DNA of 64,000 nt from the NCBI GenBank assembly GCA_948567375.1, contig OX419761.1, positions 38,416,243 to 38,480,242 of the forward strand, in the 5' to 3' direction. Shown here piece by piece: positions 292-34,907 of this stretch. Made by a program: the position numbers and the translations under genes. This stretch comes from Lunularia cruciata. Its lineage: Eukaryota; Streptophyta; Marchantiopsida; Lunulariales; Lunulariaceae. Numbering within the stretch: the stretch's first letter is position 1; each line of letters begins with the position of its first letter. Under the pieces are notes generated by a model, which worked only from the letters and a program-made list of their open reading frames with translations, was not told where the DNA came from and ran no database searches.

Positions 292-650
292 TGTAAAAGA
301 CCAAGACCAAGGAGAGAAATAGGAGAATGGAAACTCACATTGGGACATTTGAATGAGAGAAAACTCCAAATGCCTAGCATGACTTTGGCTTTGGTATTTA
401 TAGGTAGCATACAAGGCCCTTGAGAAGCTTCTCAAGAAGCTTCCTTTTATAAGCCACCTACTTGGCGTGCAAGCTAAGCTAGTTAGAAGCTCCTAGAAGC
501 TTCCTTTGAAGCTACCTGCTTGGAGTGCAAGTTAACTAGTCGGGAAGCTTCCCAAGAAGCTTCCTAGATGCTTCTAGAATATTCTAGGCTAATTTGGTTT
601 ATTCTCTACTTTGTTAGACTTATTACGTCGCTAAACTCCATATTGATACA
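292..650 (-). repeat. Gypsy 1 3' LTR (left), 359 bp
   Basis: This is a direct repeat of 5447-5871, ending TG…CA on each side. It carries three tandem units built on GAAGCTTC (from 424, 486 and 544), against four in the partner LTR. That missing unit accounts for the 66-bp length difference. It includes the perfect module TTCTAGAATATTC at 572-584 and a TATA box (- strand CTATAAATA) at 395-403. Confidence 0.92.
424..584. promoter_or_regulatory. Heat-shock-element array in gypsy 1 left LTR
   Basis: GAAnnTTC occurs at 424-431, 436-443, 496-503, 544-551, 556-563 and 577-584. The block 486-503 is a four-module HSE with one mismatch, and 572-584 is a perfect three-module HSE (TTC-GAA-TTC at 2-bp spacing). 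A TATA box lies 20 bp away in the direction of element transcription. HSEs are the binding sites of heat-shock factors; binding here is inferred. Confidence 0.7.
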
Positions 651-662
651 TATTCCCCCACC
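651..662 (-). other. Polypurine tract of gypsy 1
   Basis: On the - strand this reads GGTGGGGGAATA, immediately before the 3' LTR. It is the expected primer for plus-strand DNA synthesis. The identical 12-mer is at 14886-14897 in gypsy 2. Confidence 0.8.
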
Positions 663-669
663 GCTAGTT

Positions 670-930
670 GGTGATGTCCTTGTCGCCATTCAAGCTTCAA
701 AGTCCTAGATGGTCATCTGTGCATTCTAGAGGTGAGAAAGAGGTTCCCATGTGGCATCATGAAGGGGATATCCTTTCCAAAGAACCTTTTACTCCGAATG
801 TTGATGGCGTCCTTGTTGGATGTGGCAACGTGCAAGGGTATGATCAACTTCGTACTCCTCATGATCATTGATAGGGATAGGGGGAGGAGGAGGTTGGACT
901 CGAGAGGAGAAAGAAGAGGGTTAGGAACAA
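670..930 (-). pseudogene. C-terminal tail of gypsy 1 integrase, possible chromodomain remnant
   Basis: This stretch lies between the integrase core and the polypurine tract. The - strand has coding-like residues (including MRSTKLIIPLHV and ending near WRQGHHQL before a stop) in the position where chromoviruses carry a chromodomain followed by a short tail. The similarity is too weak to be sure. Several stops interrupt it. Confidence 0.35.
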
Positions 931-936
931 AGGGTT

Positions 937-2188
937 TCAACTTGGAAACATGAGAGATAGGATGGATTTGCATATGACAAGGCAAGGCAAGGCAAGTAGA
1001 TAAGCAATAAGAGAGACAATTTGGGTGACATCAAAAGGTCCAATCCAATTAGGGGCAATCTTACAAACTTGGGTATCAAGTGGGAAGGGGTAGATTACTA
1101 GAGGATAGCATAACTTTATCACCAACTTCAAAGGTGAGATCACAATGATGGTGGTCCACATATTGTTTTTGACAATTCTGAGCAACAAGGAGGTAAGATT
1201 TGGCCAATTGGAGAGATTTGGATATGTCAAGAAGGTTGAAGTATGAGGGACTTGAGATGGAAGAGTAGCAAGAAGAGAACCTGAACAAGCAGATATTGGC
1301 CAAAATTGAGAAAGAAAGGAGAGAATCTGGTGCTTGCCTATTTAGAATTGTTGTATGCAAACTCCGCAACTACAAGACATTCACCCCAATTAGTATGATG
1401 AATGTTGACGCACAAAGCATATCTTCCAAGGTGCAATGCGCATGTTCAATTTATCCATCAATTTGAGGATGATAGGCTATGGACAAAGCAAGCTTGGTGG
1501 CAAGTATCTTGAATAGGGCTTGCCAAAACTTTCTGGTGAATCAACGATCACAGTTGGAGATGAGTACACGTGGCATCCAATGATGTTTGAATACATTATT
1601 GAAGTAGAGTTGCGCCAAGGTTGGAGCATCCATAGTATCAATTGTTGGTGCCAAATGGATTTGCTTACTAAGCTTATCCACAAACACCACAATTGTTGTG
1701 TGACCTTGTTGTGTCCAGGGCAAGGAGGTGATGAGATCTAAGCTCACATGTTCCCAATGAGTAGTTGGAATGGGAAGTGGTTGAAGGAGTCCACTCGGCT
1801 TTTGGTTATTGGCCTTGTTGCGTTGATAACTCTTACACAATTGGACAAACTCCCAAACATCTTGTGTCATGTTGGGCCATCACCATTGGCGTTGGAGGGT
1901 ACCCAAGGTCTTATCCACCCCCATGTGACCAGCTATTGGTACATCATGGGCTTCCTGAAGGCACATAAGTTGGAGATCAACTTTGGTTGGAACATAGATC
2001 CGATCCGCATGGAATAGAAGGCCTTCCTTGAAGGAGAAGGTGTTGTACTCCTTGTCGCATGTTGTTAGACTACCATGTACCATTTGGAAGAAGGGATCTT
2101 GTTGTAGAGCTGACCAAAACTCGTTATGGACCTTGGGGTCAATTGACACCGTTGTAATTGCCACCGTGATGAAAGGAAGAGACTTCAA
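937..2188 (-). pseudogene. Gypsy 1 integrase (broken)
   Basis: The - strand shows the integrase H2C2 region, with HMGVDKTLGTLQ near 1900 and then VQLCKSYQRNK near 1830. In the latter the second Cys of the usual CxxC is Tyr. The catalytic core follows, with SLDLITSLP and VVFVDKLSKQIHLAP around 1650-1760, then NCDR in place of the usual SDRD near 1541. Pieces toward 937 match the rest of the core. At least three stops or frameshifts separate the pieces. The enzyme would insert element cDNA into the chromosome, but this copy is inactive. Confidence 0.85.
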
Positions 2189-2199
2189 TTCAGGTCATT

Positions 2200-2870
2200 G
2201 TGATAGAGCATCAGGGATGACATGGAATTGACCTGGTTTGTACTCAAGTTTGATGTCAAAACATTGGAGTTGCTCTTCCTATTGATGATGTCGACTCTTC
2301 ATATGTTCCAAGTGTAAGGTTTGCAACAATGGCTTGTGTTCAATTTGCATGACCACTTGTTTCCCCAAGAGGTAATGCCTCCATACCTTGGTGGTATATA
2401 CCATTGCAAGTTGTTCTTGATCTCAAGCAAAGTAATTTCTTTTAGTTGTATTTAGTCGGCAAGACACAAAGGCAATGGGATGTAGTCCATCAAGGAATTT
2501 TTGTTGCAACAAAGCTCCAATTGCAAAGTTAAAAGCATCAAAATCAACCACACAAGATAATTGAGGATCATATGGTTGAAGAATATGTCTTGAAGATACC
2601 ATATGCTTTAAATTTTGGAATGTTTCTTCATGCTTGGTGGTCCACTAGAAACTTGAGTTCTTTCCCAAGAGGTTAGTCAATGGTGCAACTACATGAGCAT
2701 AATGGTGGATGAACCGTCGGTAAAAGCTGGCCAATCCATTGGATGCCCGTACTTCTATAGCTTCCTTTGGGGTAGGCCAATCAGTAATAGCCTTGATATT
2801 CTCTTCTTCCATCTTGATCCACTCTAATGAGATCTTATGACCCAAGAAGGTAACCTTCTTCTGCCAAAAA
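2200..2870 (-). pseudogene. Gypsy 1 RNase H and connection region (broken)
   Basis: The - strand encodes ASFYRRFIHHYAHVVAPLTNLL at 2645-2735, the RT-RNase H connection typical of gypsy elements. It continues through an RNase H-like region (LNTTKRNYFA, LAMVYTTKVWRHYLLGKQV, HKPLL) to about 2290. Catalytic residues are partly altered (DFDAF where a TDAS motif is expected). Stops at several points make it a pseudogene. It is continuous with RT on the right and integrase on the left. Confidence 0.8.
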
Positions 2871-3500
2871 GCACACTTTGACTTCTTGCAATAGAATTTC
2901 CATTGTCGTAGTCGTCTTAGGACTTCTCACACATGATTCATGTGTTCTGCCTATGTCTTGCTATAGATAAAGATATCATCCAAGAACACTACTACGGACC
3001 AATCCAATATTCCCTCCAACACTCGATGCATCTGATCCATGAAGACTGCTAGAGCATTAGTGAGTCCGAAAGGTAGAACTCTTCACTCAAAATGCTTGTA
3101 CCTTGTGCTAAAGGCAGTCTTTTTCACATCCTCTCTCTCAATAGGAATTTGCCAATAGCCGCTATGAAGATCTAGCTTGGAAAAGTAACGTGCTTCACTT
3201 AGTTGATCAAGAAGGCCATCGATCCAAGGCAAGGGATATGCATTCTTCACAATTTCTTTATTGAGCCTACGGTAATCAATACATAAACGAAGTCCTCCAT
3301 CCTTCTTTGGAACAAATAGTACCGGTGCTTCCCAAGGAGAGATATTATGTCATATGAAATCCTTCTCCAACAACTCTGTAAGTGTTATTCACAACTCCTC
3401 CAACTTCTTTGGTGAGAGCCAATAGATTGGTCTACTCATTGGAGTACTCCGTGGCAATAACTTGATCTTGAAGGGCATACCTCAATTGGAGGGTAATCCC
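2870..3500 (-). pseudogene. Gypsy 1 reverse transcriptase (broken)
   Basis: The - strand contains the RT fingers and palm. LPFGLTNA lies near 3060 and the catalytic motif VFLDDI near 2970-2990, the gypsy form of YLDD, with both aspartates kept. [14 protein letters not shown] near 3140-3190 carries the first catalytic Asp. Upstream, [15 protein letters not shown]-like residues lie near 3270-3320. Frameshifts and stops occur, so no full ORF remains. The family copies RNA to cDNA in virus-like particles. Confidence 0.88.
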
Positions 3501-3639
3501 TTTGCTAGATCATCCGGAAACACGTCCGCAAACTCTTGAACTATCCGATAACCATTGCTTGATGAGGCTCTTAGCCCTCCTCAGATTGTTCTTGTGCAAT
3601 CGGCTTGATCCACACCGCAAATACAGACTTATCTTCCTC

Positions 3640-3815
3640 CAAAGCTTGCTCTATGGTTGCTTTACTAACAAACTTCCCTTCTAGGGACTCATCTCTCTTC
3701 CAAGCTTGCTCCATGGTTGCCTTCTTGGCAAATTTTCCATCTTGGGACTCATTTCCCTTCCAAATTTTCTCTATGGCTACCTTCTCGACAAACTTCCCAT
3801 CTTGGGACAGACTAT
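3640..3815. repeat. Short tandem array in the protease-RT linker of gypsy 1
   Basis: About three imperfect copies, each around 60 bp, share CTTGCTC-ATGGTTGC, CAAACTTCCC and TTGGGACTCAT segments. The duplications multiply one small linker segment of the polyprotein. Gypsy 2 has a single such unit near 18270-18310, so the expansion is specific to element 1. Confidence 0.6.
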
Positions 3816-3897
3816 TCTTAGGTGTCTTACTCAGAGGTGCTAGACAACCTAATCAAAAATTCATACCTTGGTGTTGTACTTGAATTTGTCGTCGGGT

Positions 3898-4194
3898 CTA
3901 ATCGAATTGAACCTTATGACATTCAAGCCAAGGTAGACCCACAATGATATTGTAGTGTAGAGGTGCCACTACAAACCTCATACACTCCAAAGACTCCTTC
4001 CTAATCTTGAAGGTAACATGATGTGAGGTGCGGAATGCAAAACCCTTTCTACCATCCGCCATCATCAAACTACTTCCAAACACTAGCTTGCTAAGAATAC
4101 CCAATTCTTTTGCTACTTGCATAAACATGCAATTCTTTGAACTTCCAAAATCAACCAAAATCCTACAGCCCCAATTAGATATCGTACCTTGCAA
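3898..4194 (-). pseudogene. Gypsy 1 aspartic protease
   Basis: A 98-residue open stretch on the - strand with RILVDFGSSKNCM and, 60 residues on, IIVGLPWLE. It matches a retropepsin-like domain. The catalytic triad normally reads D-S/T-G; here it is DFG, a likely inactivating change. The region lies between the gag zinc knuckle and RT, the expected place for cleaving the polyprotein. 3500-3897 is the poorly conserved linker to RT and contains three imperfect copies of a roughly 60-bp unit (CTTCCCATCTTGGGAC-like). Confidence 0.82.
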
Positions 4195-4329
4195 GTGAAG
4201 CTAACTTACATAAGTCAAGCCTTCAATCCCATTGGAACTAATCAAGCTCCCATTAGGCGGCTCAAAATCTCCTATTGGGATTCCTTGTTGCCTTGATCAT
4301 TTTGTTCCACAATCTCCATATGGGCAACT

Positions 4330-5175
4330 TGTCGAGGTTGCTCATTCCTAAGTGGGCATTCAGCAATGCGATGTCCAACTGGCAACAATAAAAACAACCT
4401 CTATTTTGTCATAATCTTTCTCTATCCGCTATACCAAGTGGTCTCTGTTGGATAGCATCAATCTCCATTTGTGTTGGTTCTTCCACCGGTGCATAGTGTG
4501 CTGGTAGGCCTTGTGTAGGTTGAGGGCAAGACCAAGTTGTTACAACCAAGGAATCAAAGCACTCAGCTAATTGCATGGCTTCTTCTACGTTTTGTGGTTC
4601 CCGCATGGTCACCTCCATTTGGTTCATGACTTCAGTCCCCGCACAAATTGATCTAGAACTTCACCTTCTTGTATATTTGGAACTTGCATGATGATGTTTT
4701 TAAATTATGTGATGTAGCTCCTTACTGAGCCAACTTGCTTCAACTCTGCCAATTTATCTTGTGTGGCGCAGGTGGCATTTATAGTTTGAAAGTGATCCAA
4801 TATTGCATCCTTGAACTCTGCCCATGTAAAAATTGGTGCAACAATCTGTCGTTCAGCTCGCTCTACTTGAAATCGCTACCAAAGTTTTGCCACACCATCT
4901 AATTGGCTAGAGGCCAAAAGAATTTATTTCCATTCATCTTAAAGATTGGTGGCTTCAAAGTAATGTTTGCAGTCAAACACAAAATTTTCCACTGTGCCCG
5001 GAAAATTCTTACCTTCAAACACCTTGGGTTTTGGAAATTGAATGTGATTTTCTCCATCTTGAATTGGCGCTCTCTCTATATATTCTCATTGTTATTGATC
5101 TCGTTCATCTAGTACTTGAGTCAAGTGCTCGATTTGTTGCTACATTGCAAGGATGACGTCCGGTATTGCCGCCAT
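4330..5175 (-). pseudogene. Gypsy 1 gag with zinc knuckle (broken)
   Basis: The - strand gag starts at an ATG near 5175 (MAAIPDVILAM) and runs left through conserved segments such as FPKPKVFEGKNF and AEFKDAILDHFQ. A capsid-like C-terminus follows at 4409-4627. Near 4340-4400 a CCHC zinc knuckle (CFYC…HRIAEC) can be read only across a one-base frameshift. Gag would form the particle and bind RNA. Stops in the N-terminal half confirm decay. Confidence 0.78.
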
Positions 5176-5430
5176 AGCTACTACTCTATTCCACTACTCC
5201 CACTTTATCTAATTGATTAACACATAGATGCAGCACGTCCACCGTTCTCCATAAGTTACAATTGGAAGTATCAAGGGTTCCTCAAATACAGTGATCATAT
5301 GTAGAAAATCTTGCCCAAAGTGCAAGGTGATGAATTGTGTGAAATGATGCTTGGGTGATATCTGGACATGAAAATCCCAATAATTTGGCGGAAGTGGATT
5401 TGGTGGTCCATAAATTCCATCCATCACATT
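5176..5430 (-). other. Gypsy 1 5' leader
   Basis: The untranslated leader between the primer-binding site and the gag ATG. The open frames in it resemble no protein. A homologous leader is in gypsy 2 at about 19685-19930. Confidence 0.55.
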
Positions 5431-5446
5431 CCTGCTCTGATACCAA
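5431..5446 (-). other. Primer-binding site (initiator-Met tRNA) of gypsy 1
   Basis: On the - strand, directly after the 5' LTR end TTTACA, the sequence reads TTGGTATCAGAGCAGG. TGGTATCAGAGC is the complement of the plant initiator-Met tRNA 3' end, the usual primer for plant LTR elements. Confidence 0.9.
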
Positions 5447-5871
5447 TGTAAAAGACCAAGACCAAGGAGAGAAATAGGAGAATGGAAACTCACATTGGGA
5501 CACTTGAATAAGAGAAAAATCCAAATGCCTAGCATGACTTTGACTTTAGCATTTATAGGTAGCATACAAGGCCCTTGAGAAGCTTCTCAAGAAAGCTTCC
5601 TTGAGTCACTTTCTTAAAGTGCAAGCTTAGTTAACTAGGAAGCTTCTCAAGAAGCTTCCTTCTAGAAGCCGCCTACTTGGCATGCAAACTAAGTTAGTTA
5701 GAAGCTTCTAGAAGCTTCCTTCTAGAAGCTACCTACTTGGAGCGCAAGTTAACTAATTGGGAAGCTTCCCAAGAAGCTACCTAGATGCTTTTGGAATATT
5801 CTAGGCTAATTTGGCTTATTCTCTACTTAATTAGCCTTACTAATTACATCGCTAGACTCCATATTGTTACA
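5447..5871 (-). repeat. Gypsy 1 5' LTR (right), 425 bp
   Basis: Direct repeat of 292-650. In element sense, U3 starts at 5871, followed by four tandem units of about 60 bp built on GAAGCTTC (5761, 5701, 5639, 5579). The TATA box (CTATAAAT) is at 5551-5558, then R/U5 to 5447. The TG…CA ends are intact. This LTR would have driven transcription leftward. Confidence 0.93.
5579..5801. promoter_or_regulatory. Heat-shock-element array in gypsy 1 5' LTR
   Basis: GAAnnTTC modules lie at 5579-5586, 5639-5646, 5651-5658, 5701-5708, 5711-5718, 5761-5768 and 5794-5801. Positions 5701-5718 form a perfect four-module HSE, GAAGCTTCTAGAAGCTTC. Further TTCtaGAA pairs are at 5660-5667 and 5720-5727. Seven 6-base-specified modules in 425 bp is far above the roughly 0.1 expected by chance. 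The array ends 20 bp upstream of the TATA box in element sense. Heat-factor binding is inferred. Confidence 0.75.
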
Positions 5872-5876
5872 TAGTT
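5872..5876. repeat. Target-site duplication of gypsy 1, right copy (TAGTT)
   Basis: Matches 287-291 exactly and directly abuts the right LTR. Confidence 0.9.
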
Positions 5877-13500: not shown

Positions 13501-14242
13501 ATTTATTCAAAGTGTTGGATGATTGAGTTGAAAAGGTTCATCCAAATAACTATAAGCGTAATCACTCTGCATAAATTGAACATCACATCATGTGAGTTTA
13601 TTAGATGTGAATCTGAATATAGTAGAAGAATATTGGAGATGGTCAATTACGCTTTTAGTATTTATCCAGTTTTAGAGTTATATGGGATTAACAAGATTGT
13701 ACGGAATGGTATAATACTAGTAAAAGAGTGTACCCAAACTTACTATGAGCGAAATGTTTTAATTTTTCAAGATATCGTTTTATTATACTCTATGATATAG
13801 AGCATAGCTCACTAAAAGGAAAAAGAAAGCAATTGCATCAATTCACAAGAAAATATTAATACTCAAATTAGGTGTTTCCCTGTTACGCCATTAAATATAC
13901 AGGTCATATTTTAGATAATAAAGATCATCAAAATAATTATAAGTTCTAGTCCTATTTTATATGACCCACTAGGATCATACATTGTGTATGTTTTATAAAG
14001 ATAATCTCCTTTTTTTCTTTTTTCTTTTCAATTCTAGTTAAGGCACTAACTGTAATTAAAATAATGTTTTATGTGGCAATTTCCTATAAAATCATGGTTA
14101 TGATTATCTAAATATATATTAAATATGTATCAAATTAAATAAATATTCATGGTTTAAATGCAGAAATACACATATGCGCATGGAGATTACTAATTTCAAA
14201 AAATCTTGATATATATTCTCAATTTTGATATATATTTAAATT
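13501..14242. other. AT-rich intergenic DNA
   Basis: One 93-codon open frame at 13519-13800 (+) has no recognisable motif and an AT-rich composition like its surroundings. I do not call it a gene. The rest is AT-rich with short runs of T and A. Confidence 0.5.
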
Positions 14243-14414
14243 CATGTCATAAACTAGATTAAGTTAAAGTATATTTTATTTTTCTCTTAAAGTCTCTATA
14301 AAAGACCAAGGATAGAATTAAAAGAATGCATGTCATAAACTAAATCAAGTTAAAGTATATTTTAATTTGCTCTGAAAGTCTCTATAAAAGACCAAGGATA
14401 GAATTAAAAGAATG
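14243..14414. repeat. 86-bp tandem duplication across the gypsy 2 LTR boundary
   Basis: 14243-14328 and 14329-14414 are about 93% alike (CATGTCATAAACTA… …AGAATTAAAAGAATG). Each copy contains about 55 bp of flank followed by the first 30 or so bp of the LTR. The duplication therefore postdates the gypsy 2 insertion. Confidence 0.85.
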
Positions 14415-14885
14415 GAAGATCAAAGTGAAAATCATGTTGTAACTCTTGAATGAAGGAAACTCCGATTGCCTAGCATGAGCTTGGGCTTTAGTATTTATAG
14501 AGAACATATAAAGCTCTTGAGAAGCTTCTTAGGAAGTTTTCTAAAAACCTCCTTATAGTGCAAGCTAAATTAATCTAATAGTCTCTTGAGAAGCTTTCTT
14601 CTAGAAGTAGCCTACTTAGCATGCAAGCTCAGCTAGTGGGGAAACTTTCCAAGAAGTTTCTTTTTGGAAACCACCTACTTGGCATGCAAGTTAAACTAGC
14701 CAAGAAGCTTCCTAAGAAGTTTTCTCCTAGAAGTTACCACTTGGCATACATGTTCCTTGATACTAAGGAGGTACCAAGAAGCTTCCTAGATGCTTCTAGA
14801 ATATTCTTATAACTCTTGGCTAATTTGGCCTATTTTCTACTTTGTATATCTTGACTAACTTGGCAATAAACTCCAGATTGTTACA
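14383..14885 (-). repeat. Gypsy 2 3' LTR (left), 503 bp
   Basis: It matches the other family LTRs, with TATA (- strand CTATAAATA) at 14492-14500. It has more GAAGCTTC-type units than either gypsy 1 LTR, several with drift. The first bases are TATAAAAG instead of TGTAAAAG. The end …TTGTTACA at 14885 abuts the polypurine tract. Confidence 0.85.
14521..14806. promoter_or_regulatory. Heat-shock-element array in gypsy 2 left LTR
   Basis: GAAnnTTC lies at 14521-14528, 14653-14660, 14704-14711, 14778-14785 and 14799-14806. TTCtaGAA is at 14599-14606. The perfect three-module HSE TTCTAGAATATTC is at 14794-14806, the same relative place as in gypsy 1 (572-584). The first module is again 20 bp from the TATA box. 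Several intermediate modules have decayed by single bases. Confidence 0.65.
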
Positions 14886-14897
14886 TATTCCCCCACC
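14886..14897 (-). other. Polypurine tract of gypsy 2
   Basis: On the - strand this reads GGTGGGGGAATA, identical to gypsy 1 and adjacent to the 3' LTR. Confidence 0.8.
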
Positions 14898-15997
14898 ACT
14901 TGTTGGTGACATCCTCGTCACCATGGAAGCTTCAAACTCCTAGATGATCATTTATGCATTGTGGAGATGAAAAAGAGACTCCTAGATGACATCATGAAGG
15001 GGATACCCTTTCCAAGGACTTTGCATGTTGTTTGATGGCCATGTTGAATGTGACAACGTGCAAGGATACAATCAACTTCATACTCCTAATGATTGTTGAT
15101 GGGGACAAGAGGAAGAGGGGTTTTGATGCAAGTAGAAAAGGAAGATGGATTAGAAACAAAGGGTTTCAACTTGGAAATGTAAAAGATAGGGTGGATTTTC
15201 ATATGGCAAGGCAAGGCAAGTAGATAAGCGATAGGAGAAATGATTTGGGTGATATCAAATGGACCTATTCAATTAGGAGCAAGTTTACGGACTTGAGTAC
15301 CAAGTGGGAGTGGTAGGTTACTAGGTGAAAGCATGACCTTATTACCAAGTTGAAAGGTGAAATCCCAGCAATGTTGATCCTCATATTCCTTTTGATGATT
15401 TTGAGCAACAAGGATATGAGATTTGGCTTGTTATAAGGAGTAGGCTATTGTGATCAAGGGTGGAAGTATAAGGAACATGAGGTGAAGGAGTAGCAAGAAA
15501 ATAATCTGGAACAAATGGATCTTGGCCAAACTTAAGGAAGAAGGGAGAGATTCTGATGATCCTTTACTTGGAATTATTGTAGATAAATTCAACAACCACA
15601 AGGTATTCATCCCAATTGGTATGGTGAATGTTGACAAAGGCACAAAGCATATCCTCTAAGGTGCAATTTTCATGCTCAATTTTTCCATCAATTTGAGGAT
15701 GATAGACCATGGACAAAGCAATCTTGGTGCTGAGTAGCTTGACGAATGCTTGCCAAAATTTACTTATGAATCAAGGATCACAATCAAAATGAGTACATGA
15801 GGCATCCTACGATGCTTAAAGACATTATCAAAGTAGATCTAGGCCAATGTTGGAGCATCCAATGTATCAAATTTTAGTGCCAAATGGATTTACTTACTAA
15901 GCTTATCAACAAACACCACAAGTGCTATATGACCTTACTTTGTCTTTGGCAAGGATGTGATGAGATCTAAGCTCACATGTTCCCATCAAGCAGATAG

Positions 15998-16402
15998 GAT
16001 GGTGTAATGTTCCAAGGACAAGAGAACCTCTAAGAGAAACACAAGAAAATAAATACAAGAGAAACATAAGGCTTCATCTCCTTAATACTCCAATGCCCCA
16101 AAGGAGCTCCTTGTCTTTATTATATAGCAAAGAGGATCCAATCAAAGGGAGATCCACCCTTGGATCAAATACATGGGTTGGTGATATGTCAATGAGCTCC
16201 ACCCTTAGATTACTTGTATGGATTGGTGACATGTTGATCTTTGTCCTATCTGGTTGGTCAAAAAAGTTTAACTAGAGGAAATCTTTAGGGTATCTTCTTG
16301 TAGGAATCTCAAAACAACATAGGTGAGGTACCATTTGAATGTTCTCAATGAAATAAAATTGGATGTGCTCCAACATCCAATTAATCTAGGTGCTACAAAT
16401 GG
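15998..16402. repeat. Flanking duplication of solo LTR (GATGG / AATGG)
   Basis: GATGG at 15998-16002 and AATGG at 16398-16402 bracket the solo LTR and differ by one base. Gypsy 1 lacks the insert at the equivalent position (about 1770), so the empty site is known. Confidence 0.7.
16003..16397 (+). mobile_element. Solo LTR (family B) inserted in gypsy 2
   Basis: A 395-bp segment TGTAATG…GCTACA is absent from the orthologous position of gypsy 1. The TG…CA ends and 5-bp flanks (4 of 5 identical) fit an LTR left by recombination. It contains an internal imperfect duplication of about 45 bp (TTGGATCAAATACATGG… and TTAGATTACTTGTATGG…). A second copy of this family, in the other orientation, is at about 46960-47787. 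No coding sequence is inside. Confidence 0.78.
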
Positions 16403-16799
16403 CATGACATGTTGAAGGATTCCACTTGGCTTCTAATTATTGGTCTTGTTGCATTAGTAGCTCCCACAAGATCAGAAAAAATCTTGAACCTCACACCATG
16501 TTGGGCTTCTACTATTGGCATTGTAGGGTACCCAAGGTCTTGTGCATGCCTATGTGATCAATGGTTAGTAAGTCATGGGCTCCTTGAAGGTGCATAAGTC
16601 GTAGATCACCCTAGGTTGGAACATAGATCCAATTCTCACAAAATAGAAGATCTTCCTTGGAAAAGAAGAAGGTGTTGTATTCTTTGGTGTGTGATGCAAG
16701 ATGACCTTGTACCATTTGGAAGAAAGGGTCTTGTAATAAAGTGATCCTAAACTCAAGTTTGAGTCAATTGATATTGTCATAATTACTACAATGATGAGA

Positions 16800-18380
16800 G
16801 GTTCAAGAAGTGTCTTTAAATTAGGTTATCATGATAGGGCATCAAGGATGACATTGAATTTTGATGTCAAAAAACTATAGTTATTCTTCTCATTGATGAT
16901 TTTGACTTTCCATGTGCTCCAAAAGTAATGTTTGCAACAAAGGTTTGTGATCAATTTGCATGATCTCTTGTTTCTCCAAGATTATGCCTCCATACTTTGG
17001 TGACATATACCATTGCTAGTTTTTCTTGATCTCAAGTAGGGTAAATTTTTTTTGTGATGTTTAGTCAATGAGACACAAAGGCAATGGGATGTAATCCATG
17101 TGGAAACTCTTGTTGCAACATAGCTCCAATGGAAAAGTTAGAAGCATCAAAATCAAACACAAAAGGTAGTTGAGGATCATATGGTTGAAGAATGGGTCTT
17201 GAAGACACCATATGCCTTTAGCCTCTTGAATGCTCCTTCATGCTTGGTATTCCACTAAAAGATTGAGGTCTTTTCTAAGAGATTGGTCAATGGTGCAACC
17301 ACATGAGCATAGTAGTGGATAAATTGTTGGTAAAAAACTTGCCAATCCATTAAATCCTTGCACTTCTATGGCATCCTTTAGAGTAGACCAATCAATGATG
17401 GCTTTGATTTTCTCCTCTTCCATCTTGATCTCCTTTGATGAGACCTTATGATCCAAGAAGGGGACTTCCTTCTACCAAAAGGCACACTTTGACTTCTTGC
17501 AATAAAACTTTCATTGACGTAGTTGTCTTTGGACTTCTTGTATGTGATTGGTGTGTTCTACCTCCATCTTGATTAAAATTAAAATAAATTAATAGATTAA
17601 AATATCATCCAATAACACCACCAGGTACTGATCCAATAACCCATCCAACACTCAATGCATCTAATAAATGAAGACTGCCAGAGCATTAGTGAGCTCAAAG
17701 GTTAAACTCTGCATTCAAAATGCCCATGCTTTGTGCAAAAGGTGATCTTTTGCACATCTTCTCTATCAATGGGAATCAACCGATAGTTGCTTCAAAGATC
17801 CAACTTGGAGAAGTATCATACTCCGCTCAATTGATCTAGCAAGTCATCACTTTGAGGTAAAAGATATGCATTCTTCACTATTTGTTTATTCAGAACACGA
17901 TAACCAATACAAAAGCAAAGTACTATATCCTTCTTTGGGACAAATAGTACTGGTGCTCTCCAAGGAGATGTATTATGCCATATGAAATCCTTCTCCAATA
18001 AATTTTTCAATGTTTTTCAAAGCTCTTCCAACTCCTAAGGTGAGAGTTGATAGTGGTCTACTCATTGGAGTACTTCTTGGCAATAACTTGATCTTGAAGT
18101 ACATACCACAATCAAAGGGTAACCCTTTTGGCAGATCACTCCAAAACACATCTATAAACTCCTAAACTTTATTATCAACTAGTGCTTGATGAGGCTTCTA
18201 GCCCTCATCATAATCTCCATGTGCAGTTGACTTGATCCACATTGCAAAATAGGAATATTTTCCTCCAAAACTTGCTCTATAGCTACTTTATTGACAAACT
18301 TCCCATCTTGGGTTTTACTATTCTCAGATGTATCATTCAAATGCACCAAACAACCTAATTGATAATTATTACCTTGGTGT
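16800..18380 (-). pseudogene. Gypsy 2 reverse transcriptase and RNase H (broken)
   Basis: Aligns with gypsy 1 at 2200-3890. Readable pieces include the RT N-terminal part at 17816-18010, with [16 protein letters not shown]-like and VPKKD segments. The connection region follows at 17238-17456. The catalytic VFLDD region near 17590-17610 is disrupted by a small AT-rich change. Many stops are present. Confidence 0.78.
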
Positions 18381-18394
18381 TGTACTTGAATTTG

Positions 18395-18724
18395 TCATTG
18401 AGTCCAATCAAATTGAATCTTATGATATCCAAGCCAAGGTAAACCTAGAATGATATCATAGTATAAAGGTGTTACTACAAACTTCATACATTCCAAATAC
18501 TCCCTCTCAATCTTGAATATAACTAGATGTGAAGTATGGAATGCAAAACCCTTTTTACCATCCACCATCATTAATCTACTTCTAATTATTGGCTTGATAG
18601 GAATGCCTGATTCCTTTGTTAATTTTATGGACACGTAATTCTCTAAACTTCCAAACTCATCCAAAATCCTACAACCACGATCAAATATCATACCTTGCAA
18701 GTGAAGCAAACTTGCATAGATCAA
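18395..18724 (-). pseudogene. Gypsy 2 aspartic protease
   Basis: A 109-residue open stretch, co-linear with gypsy 1 at 3898-4194. The catalytic region reads RILDEFGSLENYV, where LVDSGS-type is expected, so the D-S-G triad is destroyed. The C-terminal motif IILGLPWLGYHK is retained. It remains open more by chance than by selection. Confidence 0.78.
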
Positions 18725-18766
18725 TCCTTCAATCCATTGAAACTAATCAAGTTTCCAATAGGTGGC

Positions 18767-19685
18767 TCAAACTCTCTTATTGGGATTCTTTGTTTCCTTG
18801 ATCATCATGCTCCACGAATTCCATGTTGGCAATTTGTTTGGGTTATCCATTCTTGAGTGGAAATTCAACAATGCAATGTCCAATTTGGTAATAATAAAAG
18901 TAACCACTATTTTTTCATAGTCTTTCCTGATTTGTAGTGCCAAGTGGTCTCCATTGGACAACATAAATCTCCATGGTGCCGGCTCCTCCACTTGTGTGGA
19001 GTGTGTTGGCAGGTTCTTTGAAGGTTGATATTGAGACCAAGTTGTTGCAACCAAGAAATCAAAATGCTCAGCCAACTACATGGCTTCCTCCAAGTATTTG
19101 GGCTCTCACATGGTTACTTCCAATTTGGTGCATGACTTCAAGCTCCTCACAAATTGATCCAAAGCTTCACCTTCTAGTATATCTAGAGTTATCATTATGT
19201 TGTTCTAATATTGAGTGATGTAGCTTCACACAAAACCAATCTGCTTCAATTTTGCCAATCTATCTTGTGTGGCTCATACAACATTTATAGCTTGGAATCT
19301 CTCAATTATTGTGTTCTTGAATTCTTCCCATGTTGAGATTTGCATAAAAACTGCCATTTAGCTTGCTCCAATCAAAGTCAGCACTATAGTTTTGTTACTC
19401 CATCCAATTGGCTTGAAGCCAAGAGAATCTATCTTTGTTCATCTTGAAGATTTGTAGTTTCAAAATAACATTCACAATCAAACACAAAATTCTCCACTAT
19501 GCTCAAGAGATTCTTGCATTCAAACACCTTGGGCTTTGGAAATTGGATTTGCTCTTCTCCTTCTTAAAATGTTGCTCTCTCTCTACAGCTCTTATGTTGA
19601 TGGTCTCTTCTTTCTAACAACCAAGGAAGGTGCTTGATACGTTACTACATAATAATTATAACTTTGGGCATTACCACCATGGCTA
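18767..19685 (-). pseudogene. Gypsy 2 gag (broken)
   Basis: Co-linear with gypsy 1 gag at 4330-5175. MAEHFDFLVATTWSQYQP at 19075 corresponds to LAECFDSLVVTTWSCPQP of element 1. The zinc-knuckle region near 18830-18910 has lost its cysteines. Numerous stops. Confidence 0.72.
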
Positions 19686-19930
19686 CTACTCTACCAAACT
19701 ACCTACAAACATCTAAGTTAACATGTAGATGCAACACTTCCATCGTTCTCCATAAGTTACAATAGGAAGTATCAACTATTCATTGGACAAGGTGATTGCA
19801 TTAAAAAAATTCTACCCAAAGCGTGAGATGATGAACTACATGAAATGATACTTGGGTAGTACATGGATATGACAATTCTAATGTTTTGGAGGAAATGATT
19901 TGGTAATCCATAAATTCCATCCATTCCATT

Positions 19931-19946
19931 CCTACTCTAATACCAA
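19931..19946 (-). other. Mutated primer-binding site of gypsy 2
   Basis: On the - strand this reads TTGGTATTAGAGTAGG, two changes from gypsy 1, adjoining the 5' LTR. Confidence 0.75.
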
Positions 19947-20404
19947 TGTGAAAAATCAAAGAGAGAAATAAGAGAATATAAGATTGGAATGAAGATCACA
20001 TTGGGATTCTTGAATGAAGAAAACTACAAATGCCTAGCATGAACTTGGGCTTTTGTATTTTCAAGGAACATACAAAGCTCTTGAGAAGCTTCCTAAAAGT
20101 TGCCTTCTTAGAGTGCAAGCTAAGTTGACGGGGAAGCTTCTTGAGAAGCTTCCTTCTAGAAGCCGCCTACTTAGCGTGCAAGCTAAGCTATTTGAGAAAC
20201 TTCCAAAGAAGTTATTTTCTAGAAGTCACCTACTTGGTATGCAAGCTAAGCTAGATGTTTCTACTTCGTATACTTAGATACTTTGAAGGTATCAAGAAGA
20301 TTCCTAGATGCTTATAGAATATTCTTATAACTCTTTGGCTAATTGGGCCTATTTGTTATTTTGTTAGTCTTGACTAACTCATCTATAAATTCCATATTGT
20401 TACA
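19947..20404 (-). repeat. Gypsy 2 5' LTR (right), 458 bp
   Basis: Ends TGTGAA…GTTACA. It aligns with 14383-14885 with many substitutions. The TATA box found in the other three LTRs is changed to TATTTTCAAG at about 20056-20065, so this promoter is probably dead even though several HSE modules remain. Confidence 0.85.
20085..20324. promoter_or_regulatory. Heat-shock-element array in gypsy 2 right LTR
   Basis: GAAnnTTC lies at 20085-20092, 20133-20140, 20145-20152 and 20317-20324, and TTCtaGAA at 20154-20161. The three-module site is reduced to TTATAGAATATTC by one change. The array is weaker than in gypsy 1. Confidence 0.55.
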
Positions 20405-23400
20405 ATCTCCTATATAACGTAATGCTCTTCTATGCATCAATTTAATATATAACTAAATATAACTTTTATGATTACCATTGTCATTAGAACTTAATTGACT
20501 TAACTTTAGTGTCAATTGATTTATAGAGTAAAGTTTGAAATGTGAGAATCTATTTTCCCTTAAATACTGGAAATTTTGTACTCAACACAAAAAGACAAAT
20601 TGATAACAAAGCTTTTTGGAATTACCTTAAAATTTCTAGAATATCTATAATACGATGCCCTAAGAATGACATAAAATATAACATCCCACTTTTGAATTGA
20701 TATTTAACTTTTCATGATATCTACTATGAGTTCAAATTTACTATTCACAGAGCAAAATAGATTTTAGAAATAACATGAATTATATGCACAACCTTTAGTT
20801 AATTGCTTTTTCATACACACTACGGTGATGTATTGTAATTATTAAATATAATTCATATTTTAGACTCATGATTCTGTTACTATTAAATACTCATATTTAA
20901 CTTTGATTTACTACATACTTTATAGACTCAAGTATAAAGGTCTTAATTGTGATATGAAACTTTATTATAAAGACTAGTAAGTTCAAGGATCACTAAACTA
21001 GCTTAAATATAAAAGTCTTAGTATTATTCAACACAAGGTTTAAAATGCTAATCAGAATCATTTATTCTACATAAACCTATAATTGAGAGTATTTCAAAAT
21101 TTCTCTAAATGAATCCCACAAGTAAGATATAGTAAGTTCATTTGTCACTTCTTTATATAGTCAAGCTAGCATAGAAGCTAATCATCTTTACTCCTAATAC
21201 ATAAGAAAAAATTGATAACTAATACATATGATTCATCCACTAATCAAGATTTAATTTAAAATTTCCCTTACTAGCTTATTATTTCAAGATTTATTTTCCA
21301 TAAATCTTCAAAATTATGCGTGAATTTATCCACAAATTTTCACCAACTAATTTAATGGGTAATATACTTAAATAGGTAAAGATTCTAACTTTAACTGTCA
21401 TTAGTCAAAGATAGTTATAAAAGCCGTACATTTGCTTATATTATACTTATGAAACATATAGCATTAGCTATATGACCTGAAACTGAAGTTTCGTGTATTT
21501 TATATGATGTAACTTGCCCTATATGCTATGCGTTATGTCTCACTTTGCCTCGTTATGTCCCAGAGCCGCCTTAGGCTTCTAACCAAACACATCATATAGG
21601 GATCATAATTTTTTTAAGTTTGGTTTACTATTATCTATGATAAATATGATAACTACTATATAAATCATAGTAATATTTATTAAATATTTTATTTAACACT
21701 AAAAACATATTTTAAATTATTAATAAGTGCAAAAAATAATAATATATTTTAAATATATTGATATTCCAATAAGGATATCAATATCACTTTTATCTTATAC
21801 AGCCTCAAATGACTAATGAGAAAGGTAATTATTATGTGACATATTATAATAAAATGATTAGCATGCAAAAAAACACCTTGTAACCAACCCTTGAGCTAAG
21901 AACGATTCTAAGCCCCAATAATAACTCATAGAAAGAACTAAAGAGTTGAAAGAGAAATTATTAAAAAATATTCTTGTGCTGAAAAGCACAGGTTTCTAAT
22001 GTTTTAGTATCTCCAAAATTGAGTTGGTATACTTACTTGAGATGGATCTCTGCAAAATCCTCTGCTCTATAGTGAGTTCAAACTACATCAAATTGATATA
22101 TTGAAACATAATAATCCGAAGTCCATGAACACAAACTAATCTAGATGGAAAAACGCAACCGCGTGGGAAAACAAGAAGGATGGAAAACCCCATCAAGCCG
22201 TACAGGGAAGAGACATGGGGTAAAATGGAGCTTAGCCCCAACTAATCTAGATAGTATTGATGAATGTTTTCTAAACGCGCTATTTTCCTCAACTTTTGAC
22301 ATTAGTCAATAGGTATGGATATATATTCAATTTACATTGTCAATTGAATAATAGTGAAAAGGATTTTACCGAAAATAGTTTCCTTCGAGCATTTTCAAAC
22401 CCATCTTGCAACAACTGAACCTCTATTATCGAGTTTAATATCATATTTAATTTGTTGTTACATAACTTATCCATATCACAACTATGAATAAGAATATGAC
22501 ATTAATAAGTAATTTTCTGCAGTTGAGTATACCACTCGAAATATTACACTCTATAATCGAAACAGTAGTTTCTGACTTTGTTCTGGATAGCACCATATTT
22601 TGCTAACAACAAATTCTCACAAAGCCGGAATGTACATGAAAGGAGAGATAAATTTATTTATTTATTCTTTCAATCATATTCCAAAGGTCGAGTTGTAATT
22701 CTCATAGATACTACAAAGTTGATAACCATGTACAGTAGAGTGTAGTTAGAAACTTAAGGGTAAATTACTTCCTCTCGAAAAGGACATTCTTTAAGAATCT
22801 AGAATTTCGAAAATGCAATCCACAGATTTCATGAAAAATTGCTAAATACCAAGATCATACAAGGTCCTAATACCCTATGTCAGTCCACTTAATCTATTGG
22901 TAACTGTTCCAAATTGATAACTTCAGAAACAACCATTATTATTTTTCTTTACTTGAGTCTTGTAACTTTAAACTTTACTTTTTTATCCACTTTCTCCTCC
23001 TTTGTCATAGTACAATGATAAATAAAAGATAAACTTACTAAAGTGTATTTACTTTCGAGTTAATATATAGAACGTAAAAATCACTCCATCGTCATCCCAG
23101 AGGAATGTTCACGTGATTAGAATTTCGTTGCCATTAAAAGAAGAAAATGGATTCCTCTATTCTGGTAAAAGTATTTAAGATTTATTTACTCTAAATTTCT
23201 TTTTAAAATATAAGTTTCCTACAATCATAAGATTTATTTATTCAACATTCATAACCGAATTAATTTCTTCACGAAGAAGACATAAGATACACAAAGTCCT
23301 CCTTTGACCTCCCCCATATGTTCTTTGAACCACAGCCTCTCCGTCTTAATATTTTATAATTTTATAATATTTTTTATTTACTTTAGAGTACAACCTTTGC
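20405..23400. other. AT-rich, gene-free DNA
   Basis: About 3 kb with no open frame of note and no recognisable domain. The only structured element is the short SINE-like insert at 22147-22239. Confidence 0.6.
22134..22252 (+). mobile_element. SINE-like short insert with 13-bp direct repeats
   Basis: A 93-bp segment (22147-22239) with GGATGGAAAACCCCATCAAG and GACATGGGGTAAAATGG is bracketed by AACTAATCTAGAT at 22134-22146 and 22240-22252. A related segment occurs at 61993-62118, also between direct repeats. Length and flanks fit a small target-primed retroposon. There is no poly(A) tail, and I see no clear pol III A and B boxes, so the class is uncertain. Confidence 0.55.
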
Positions 23401-34121: not shown

Positions 34122-34907
34122 TCACAAGGAAGAGATGAACTTGCGGAGGTGCCGGATGTACTCGGGATAGTACTCCAGATTGCAATGACCGCCACCTTTC
34201 AACCATAAGGGCTCATACTTCACTTCACACAGATCCCAGAGCTGCTTCCCATGTGTCCATTCTACAACCTCGTCCGCTGTTCCGTGCATCACGAGCACAG
34301 GGCACTTGACAAATTTAATCTTGTCAATATTCTTAAAGATGTCACACCAGTACGTCCTCTTAACGGGGTACATCACTCGCAGACCTGAGAGAATAGGGCT
34401 ATGCAATATTACCGCACGCAGGTCCTGATGCTTCATTGCAAGATCTAATGTGGGACCGCTTCCCACGGATTGTCCGTAGAGGACTACATTTTCTGGCTTA
34501 GTACCATAATCCCGATCCAAGCATTCAAATGCCGCCCTGATGTCGGCATATGTGTTCTCCTCACTTGGCTTCCCAGTAGAGGCTCCATAACCCGAATAGT
34601 CATAACCGAGAACATTAACCCGTAAATGAGCACTCAGTTCGACAAAAAGTTCGTGCATCTGCCCCAAATCGGCAGCGTTTCCATGAGAATAGAGCAAGGT
34701 AAGATTTGCGGTAGGACAGCGTACATAAAGTGCTACAATATCCTGTTTTCGATCAGTACGCAACCACTTCACTTCCACATTTTCTCTAGGATTGACATCA
34801 GACAGGCAAAACTTGCCAGTCTGATCATCTTTGATTACTTTGTAAGAAGGCGGCGTCGGAGGAAAAAAAGCGAATCTAGCTGCAACCGATGAAGTCACCG
34901 CTCCCAT
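34122..34907 (-). CDS. ABHD17/WAV2-like alpha/beta hydrolase, single exon, 261 aa
   Basis: A serine hydrolase of the ABHD17 family; animal members remove palmitate from proteins at membranes, and plant relatives include the root-waving protein WAV2. The nucleophile elbow GQSVG gives Ser147, with Asp212 in HGTADEVV and His241 in GGGHCNLE, so the triad is complete. [11 protein letters not shown] (74-84) and [15 protein letters not shown] (101-115) are family signatures. The N-terminus MGAVTSS has Gly2 and Ser6, suitable for N-myristoylation (inference). The whole fold is in one exon, whereas related plant genes as I recall them have several. The protein stops 8 residues after EYIRHL, lacking the basic Ser-rich tail (about 60-100 residues) of many angiosperm homologues. 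The start codon has G at +4. Confidence 0.94.

Follow-up and report, generated by a model that had tools for sequence, protein, structure and literature searches.

The window, a 64,000-nt stretch of the Lunularia cruciata genome (G000:C11:38416243-38480242), contains near its left end an LTR retrotransposon in minus orientation, here called element 1 (Table 1). TG..CA LTR ends, a PBS, a polypurine tract and a 5-bp TSD were all present. A Pfam search, in which the reading frames were taken with X at stops, placed the domains on the minus strand in the order Retrotrans_gag, RVT_1, RT_RNaseH and Integrase_H2C2, and a chromodomain followed downstream of the integrase (Chromo, 2.6e-06, 27.7 bits with a cut-off of 25.1). 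Since the integrase comes after RT/RNase H, this is the gypsy order, and the Ty3/gypsy identity proposed in a preliminary description of this DNA was borne out by gag, RT, RNase H, integrase and chromodomain. Element 1 is not a member of ONSEN (COPIA78), because the integrase lies after RT, a chromodomain is present and the Ty1/copia order was not found. We take the PBS TTGGTATCAGAGC to be of the initiator-methionine tRNA type. The RT/RNase H piece was scored against the 7986 candidates that had the most words in common with it and a length of 0.55-1.75 times that of the query. The relatives among the best 120 listed came from algae, fungi, flowering plants and environmental contigs and were only 37-62% identical, so no close named relative was identified among these 120 matches. 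Element 1 is an old, decayed copy, as 28 of the 359 aligned sites differ between its two LTRs and the perfect four-module heat shock element (HSE) described below is gone from the 3' LTR.

Table 1. Retrotransposon features in the window, numbered from its first nucleotide.
Feature	Position	Strand	Basis or remark
Element 1, Ty3/gypsy chromovirus-type LTR retrotransposon	292..5871	-	LTR repeats, ends and TSD by direct reading, Pfam domains
TSD of element 1, 5 bp, TAGTT	287-291 and 5872-5876		direct reading
5' LTR of element 1, 425 bp	5447..5871	-	repeat comparison, direct reading
3' LTR of element 1, 359 bp	292..650	-	repeat comparison, direct reading
PBS TTGGTATCAGAGC	5434..5446	-	direct reading
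Polypurine tract TGGGGGAATA, adjoins 3' LTR	651..660	-	direct reading
gag (Retrotrans_gag / Ty3_capsid)	4585..5031	-	Pfam
Reverse transcriptase domain (RVT_1), broken copy	2831..3313	-	Pfam
RNase H domain	2258..2644	-	Pfam
Integrase zinc-binding domain	1811..1978	-	Pfam
Chromodomain	696..851	-	Pfam
U3 dyad array, GAAnnTTC at 5579, 5639, 5651, 5701, 5711, 5761, 5794	5579..5801	-	
Perfect four-module HSE GAAGCTTCTAGAAGCTTC, 4P type	5701..5718	-	motif scan, direct reading
TATA box CTATAAAT	5551..5558	-	direct reading
Remnant of distal HSE, GAATATTC kept, third module gone	5786..5801	-	three modules complete in other copies
Distal three-module HSE, element sense GAATATTCTAGAA, intact in 3' LTR	572..584	-	
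3' LTR homologue of four-module HSE, one base changed	486..503	-	
Element 2, older relative, approximate ends	14405..20406	-	LTRs about 14405-14886 and 19949-20406

Directly to the left of element 1, at positions 2-289, lies a copia-type gag remnant (Retrotran_gag_2, 1.3e-08), and element 1 may be nested inside an old copia element; no Pfam domain was matched on its right flank. The left end of element 2 carries an 86-bp direct tandem duplication (14239-14410, 93% alike). A gene at 34122-34907 was 86% identical to its counterpart in Marchantia polymorpha, 84-85% to those of two Riccia species and about 70-75% to those of flowering plants among the best 120 matches.

HSEs were defined as contiguous nGAAn modules, and in the naming of Pietzenuk et al. 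3P denotes three adjacent modules and 4P denotes four, according to the accessible text of PMC5059998. The preliminary description had seen in the 5' LTR the layout of a heat-inducible promoter, with a dense HSE array of seven modules that included a perfect four-module HSE and ended 20 bp from a TATA box. Reading of the letters confirmed all seven GAAnnTTC sites, the 18-bp GAAGCTTCTAGAAGCTTC and the minus-strand CTATAAAT, and 20 bp indeed separate the lower end of the array (5579) from the TATA box. The four-module HSE lies 142 bp upstream of this box. The seven sites are, however, dyads, and at least three contiguous modules were found at 5701-5718 only. The other dyads of the 5' LTR are either single or form pairs at 12-bp spacing, two bases off the HSE phase. 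The dyads are thus real, but to call them a dense array of HSEs was an overstatement because most of the pairs are out of phase. The array is built of repeat units of about 60 bp. The HSE content of the 5' LTR is not due to chance, since dinucleotide shuffles of this LTR, 5000 in all, contained 0.17 dyads on average and never more than 3; a three-module HSE turned up in 30 of them and a four-module HSE in none. In element 2, a distal three-module HSE was found at 14794 in one LTR and the four-module HSE was absent.

Motifs were then counted in the whole assembly of 565,766,749 bases and 74 contigs, where eight contigs of 60-85 Mb each (C1, C2, C6, C7, C8, C10, C11 and C12) make up 558 of the 566 Mb. 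The exact 18-mer four-module HSE occurred 5213 times, compared to 0 for the reversed control, and a generic four-module HSE 7083 times, compared to 117, so the site extends through the family. An exact HSE followed by the exact TATA box at 122-150 bp gave 3843 matches (1963 + 1880; control 0), and the exact LTR/PBS junction 2274 (1128 + 1146). A promoter layout in which an HSE precedes the TATA box is thus present and kept across the family, and since the two lie in register in 3843 matches, the four-module site is not explained by a minisatellite whose HSE spacing varies between copies. Extended by two bases to GAATATTCTAGAAGC, the distal three-module HSE was found 3766 times (1885 + 1881; control 0). 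Pairs of GAAGCTTC dyads at 12-bp spacing numbered 25128 (control 1), and a hand count of 100 listed dyad pairs gave 78 at 12 bp, 20 at 10 bp and 2 at other spacings.

Twenty generic four-module sites on one chromosome were hand-picked from 50 listed, with several apparent LTR pairs skipped, and 18 of them sit in this gypsy LTR. Together with the generic count of 7083 versus 117, this means that one retrotransposon family holds most of the four-module HSEs of this genome. The remaining two sampled sites, L109 and L110, do not match the gypsy LTR. The four-module HSE at L110, GAATTTTCAAGAATGTTC, lies outside the LTR family, has other spacer bases and is possibly a host site. Three of the HSE-TATA matches, at G000:C1:5805824, 5834980 and 5864134, are spaced by 29,156 and 29,154 bp and are identical over the 80 bases shown, which suggests that a segment of about 29 kb was recently triplicated in tandem.

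Individual LTRs were collected in three sets. Thirty 5' LTRs, all on C1, were chosen solely by the exact LTR/PBS junction; an HSE of three or four modules was present in 26 of these, with four modules in 17. The other sets, 30 loci that were the best matches to the window LTR and 12 that were the best matches to an element 2 LTR, are biased because they were picked by similarity to these LTRs.

Dating by LTR divergence covered 21 of the 30 C1 elements, the other nine lacking a 3' LTR within the retrieved sequence, and the youngest LTR pair had a single difference in 423 sites. All eight elements with a divergence of at most 0.03 had the four-module HSE in the 5' LTR, compared to 4 of 13 older elements (Fisher p 0.005), where the 13 include L052 (divergence 0.22, probably mispairing) and the four-module HSE counted in L058 sits at the distal place and not at the usual one. 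This trend would be expected of a family whose active copies have the HSE and whose old copies decay. The 3' LTRs showed no age trend, with the four-module HSE in 5 of 8 young and 7 of 13 older elements (p 1.0), and that it is no commoner in the young elements leaves doubt about heat induction. When either LTR was counted, the site was present in 8 of 8 young and 8 of 13 older elements, and all 16 LTRs of the eight young elements carried at least a three-module HSE.

Ninety-five LTRs were placed in a tree, printed without support values, and the four-module HSE occurs in each of the three main-family groups. Among the best-match copies that surround element 1, which are not a clean clade, 25 of 29 had it; another group contains most of the young elements, and there is a third. 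In element 1's own group the third module of the distal HSE was mostly lost and the four-module site kept. Among the older relatives of the element 2 type, none of 14 LTRs carried the four-module HSE, 6 of 14 kept the distal three-module HSE, and many dyads were present as 12-bp pairs. Because the older relatives have no four-module site and their dyads often stand in 12-bp pairs, the site seems to have arisen in place, via the shortening of one inter-dyad gap, while the distal HSE, which these relatives already have, looks older. The comparison with the older relatives gave no sign of a capture from a host promoter. The 'independent capture' put forward earlier found no support and was set aside, as the dyads are common to these relatives, which point instead to an in-place origin out of a U3 repeat rich in dyads.

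In five elements that were read directly, a 14-bp unit consisting of CTTCTAGAAG plus GAAG was present in one, two or three copies, giving LTRs of 409, 423 and 437 bp, respectively. At the same place, the HSE has three modules in the 409-bp form and four in the 423-bp form. The two LTRs of L064 (divergence 0.007) were one unit apart (423 and 409 bp), as were those of L041 (423 and 437 bp), and those of L063 differed by 64 bp with the 14-bp unit included. In L063 and L064 the length difference toggles the site between a three- and a four-module HSE. These differences suggest slippage after insertion or during reverse transcription, and slippage by 14 bp seems to convert between the two forms.

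A U3 that slips in this manner might also produce an HSE to no purpose. The four-module HSE would then be a by-product of a minisatellite of palindromic GAAGCTTC units, where slippage and small deletions set two dyads in HSE phase by chance, and the LTR would have no special heat-inducibility. We consider this explanation unlikely, but several observations speak for it, among them the repeat units of about 60 bp, the unit-length differences within the LTR pairs of L064, L041 and L063 and the missing age trend in the 3' LTRs. The 12-bp pairs, which are not an HSE, were also nearly five times as numerous as the 10-bp form (25128 versus 5213), and this counts against a role in the heat response. 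Furthermore, a simpler conservation test that compared HSE core and spacer columns over the LTR set gave mixed results, and in these LTR column tests the core columns were not consistently better conserved than their own spacers. Against a by-product stands the position of the 10-bp form. All three groups, as well as the youngest 5' LTRs, have it at an equivalent point of the LTR, and the TATA box lies in register with it in 3843 matches. The second HSE, GAATATTCTAGAA, also lies outside the GAAGCTTC pairs and is common to the older relatives.

Conservation of the dyads between subfamilies was measured by column in 58 main-family and 13 older-relative LTRs, with L036, L050, all 3' LTRs and the left LTR of element 2 omitted. 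Outside the four-module site, 36 of 42 dyad-core columns and 232 of 236 other U3 columns could be scored. None of the former was fixed for a difference between the main family and the older relatives, compared to 25 of the latter. The mean net divergence was 0.008 in these dyad-core columns and 0.102 in the other U3 columns, and the two classes differed in a Mann-Whitney test (p 0.0008), in the rotation control (0.003) and in Fisher's test (0.03). When the four-module columns were included, the comparison between the main family and the older relatives was not significant (permutation 0.08, rotation 0.15), and the same pooled test among the main groups gave permutation p values from 0.09 to 0.001. 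By these column tests, the dyads outside the four-module site are conserved between subfamilies, with the proviso that the alignment may favour dyads, these being repeats.

The two central bases of the dyads were equally conserved, which indicates a constraint on the octamers and not specifically on HSF contacts. Conservation of the whole octamer could mean that the dyads are the target of a dimeric transcription factor other than HSF, whose functional spacing would be the one of 12 bp, with the likeness to an HSE a coincidental similarity of half-sites. The spacing points in the same direction, as it stays constant although the four intervening bases are variable (78 of 100 pairs; 25128 versus 1). 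We find this explanation improbable, since the derived 10-bp form matches an HSE exactly and the distal GAATATTCTAGAA, whose spacer bases differ, is an HSE as well. We know of no dimeric transcription factor for GAAGCTTC.

On the host side, an exon-wise search found two loci with an HSF DNA-binding domain in the genome. One of them (L065, G000:C14:50658-51116) is on contig C14, outside the eight large contigs. In Marchantia, MpHSFB1 binds an HSE in vitro, according to the accessible text of PMC12445474. Upstream regions were inspected for 12 of 28 HSP20 matches, and no strict three-module HSE was present in the 700 bp upstream of the examined exon, a negative that carries less weight because the start was unlocated in nine. 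The HSP20 promoters thus lend the heat reading no clear support. Near-HSEs with at most two mismatches in 1500 bp were found in 11 of these 12, compared to 39 of 200 in a window background of unmatched composition.

In its HSE content the family resembles the Ty1/copia elements ONSEN (COPIA78), TERESTRA, COPIA37 and ROMANIAT5 of the Brassicaceae, for which a heat response was shown. Here as in the ONSEN group, the LTR has a 4P HSE, and three- and four-module forms both occur (PMC5059998, accessible text). In the liverwort family, a three- or four-module HSE lies upstream of a TATA box in U3 and is common to the family members. The same source describes an induction by heat of up to thousand-fold for Brassicaceae copia LTRs with predicted 4P HREs and up to hundred-fold for those with 3P. 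It also describes how the 4P of ONSEN evolved within the family from a dyad (proto-HRE), whereas the liverwort 4P seemingly arose by gap shortening and slippage in a repeat and not by duplication of a proto-HRE. The copy numbers differ as well, with 24 and 55 ONSEN copies reported there for two Arabidopsis species and thousands of HSE-bearing LTRs in the liverwort family. ONSEN is a copia element, whereas the liverwort family is a Ty3/gypsy chromovirus with a putative heat response, and the best reading would be an LTR similar to ONSEN in its logic that represents an independent gypsy case.

A heat response of gypsy elements is in itself already known. In the moss Physcomitrium patens, the accessible text of PMC7466625 describes a strong induction of the gypsy family RLG2 by heat stress and ABA, with transcription in the youngest copies only, and a repression by heat of RLG1, also gypsy. 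RLG2 is thus likewise a bryophyte gypsy family, and HSEs are not mentioned in that part of the paper. The LTR promoters of the Ty3/gypsy elements PHRE1 and PHRE2 of moso bamboo are heat-responsive (PMC9780303, PMC8656106; accessible text), and the accessible text of the latter paper mentions neither HSE, heat shock element nor HSF. The LTRs of TCN12 and TCN3 in Cryptococcus, temperature-responsive elements of a fungal host, contain putative HSEs; mobilisation at 37 C was observed, and a role for the HSEs was proposed (PMC12810828, accessible text). In Caenorhabditis, Helitrons contributed 46.2% of the C. elegans HSEs in a cross-species scan, and binding of HSF-1 was shown (PMC6927752, accessible text). 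Helitrons are DNA transposons, whereas here a single LTR family accounts for 18 of 20 sampled four-module HSEs. A literature search, with most subscription journals outside its scope, returned no heat-responsive LTR element in a liverwort. As far as these searches show, what is new is that a chromovirus family of a liverwort has fixed a four-module HSE and carries it in so many copies.

Taken as a whole, we regard it as somewhat probable that the LTR of this chromovirus family is a heat-inducible promoter driven by the host HSF. The four-module HSE would be occupied by HSF trimers, as would the distal three-module HSE in many copies, and the flanking GAAGCTTC dyads might aid the binding. With HSF bound, the TATA box, which lies about 140 bp further downstream, would drive more transcription, so that heat would lead to genomic RNA and then to new copies. 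A function of the LTR in the HSF response has the better chance of being correct because the anatomy is present in young copies. From it we infer binding of HSF in vivo, induction by heat and a part in the bursts of the element.

If this is true, the use of HSF by LTR retrotransposons is not confined to the copia elements of flowering plants and arose independently in a liverwort gypsy chromovirus, at thousands of sites. In the accessible text of Linde et al. (2023; PMC9985172), the Lunularia cruciata genome was first assembled at 580 Mb, and bursts of Ty3/gypsy elements are said to explain its doubled size; a heat-inducible LTR would offer a testable cause for these bursts. More speculatively, and in our view rather doubtfully, the gain of the 4P site in place may have led to heat-driven bursts that enlarged the Lunularia genome and planted most of the roughly 7000 four-module HSEs, with a rewiring of genes or a titration of HSF as the outcome. 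On that reading, the HSEs would be numerous enough to rewire nearby genes or to titrate HSF in a host in which two HSF loci were found. If the LTR is indeed heat-inducible, it would also provide a natural experiment, with thousands of strong HSF sites in a plant that seemingly has very few HSF genes.
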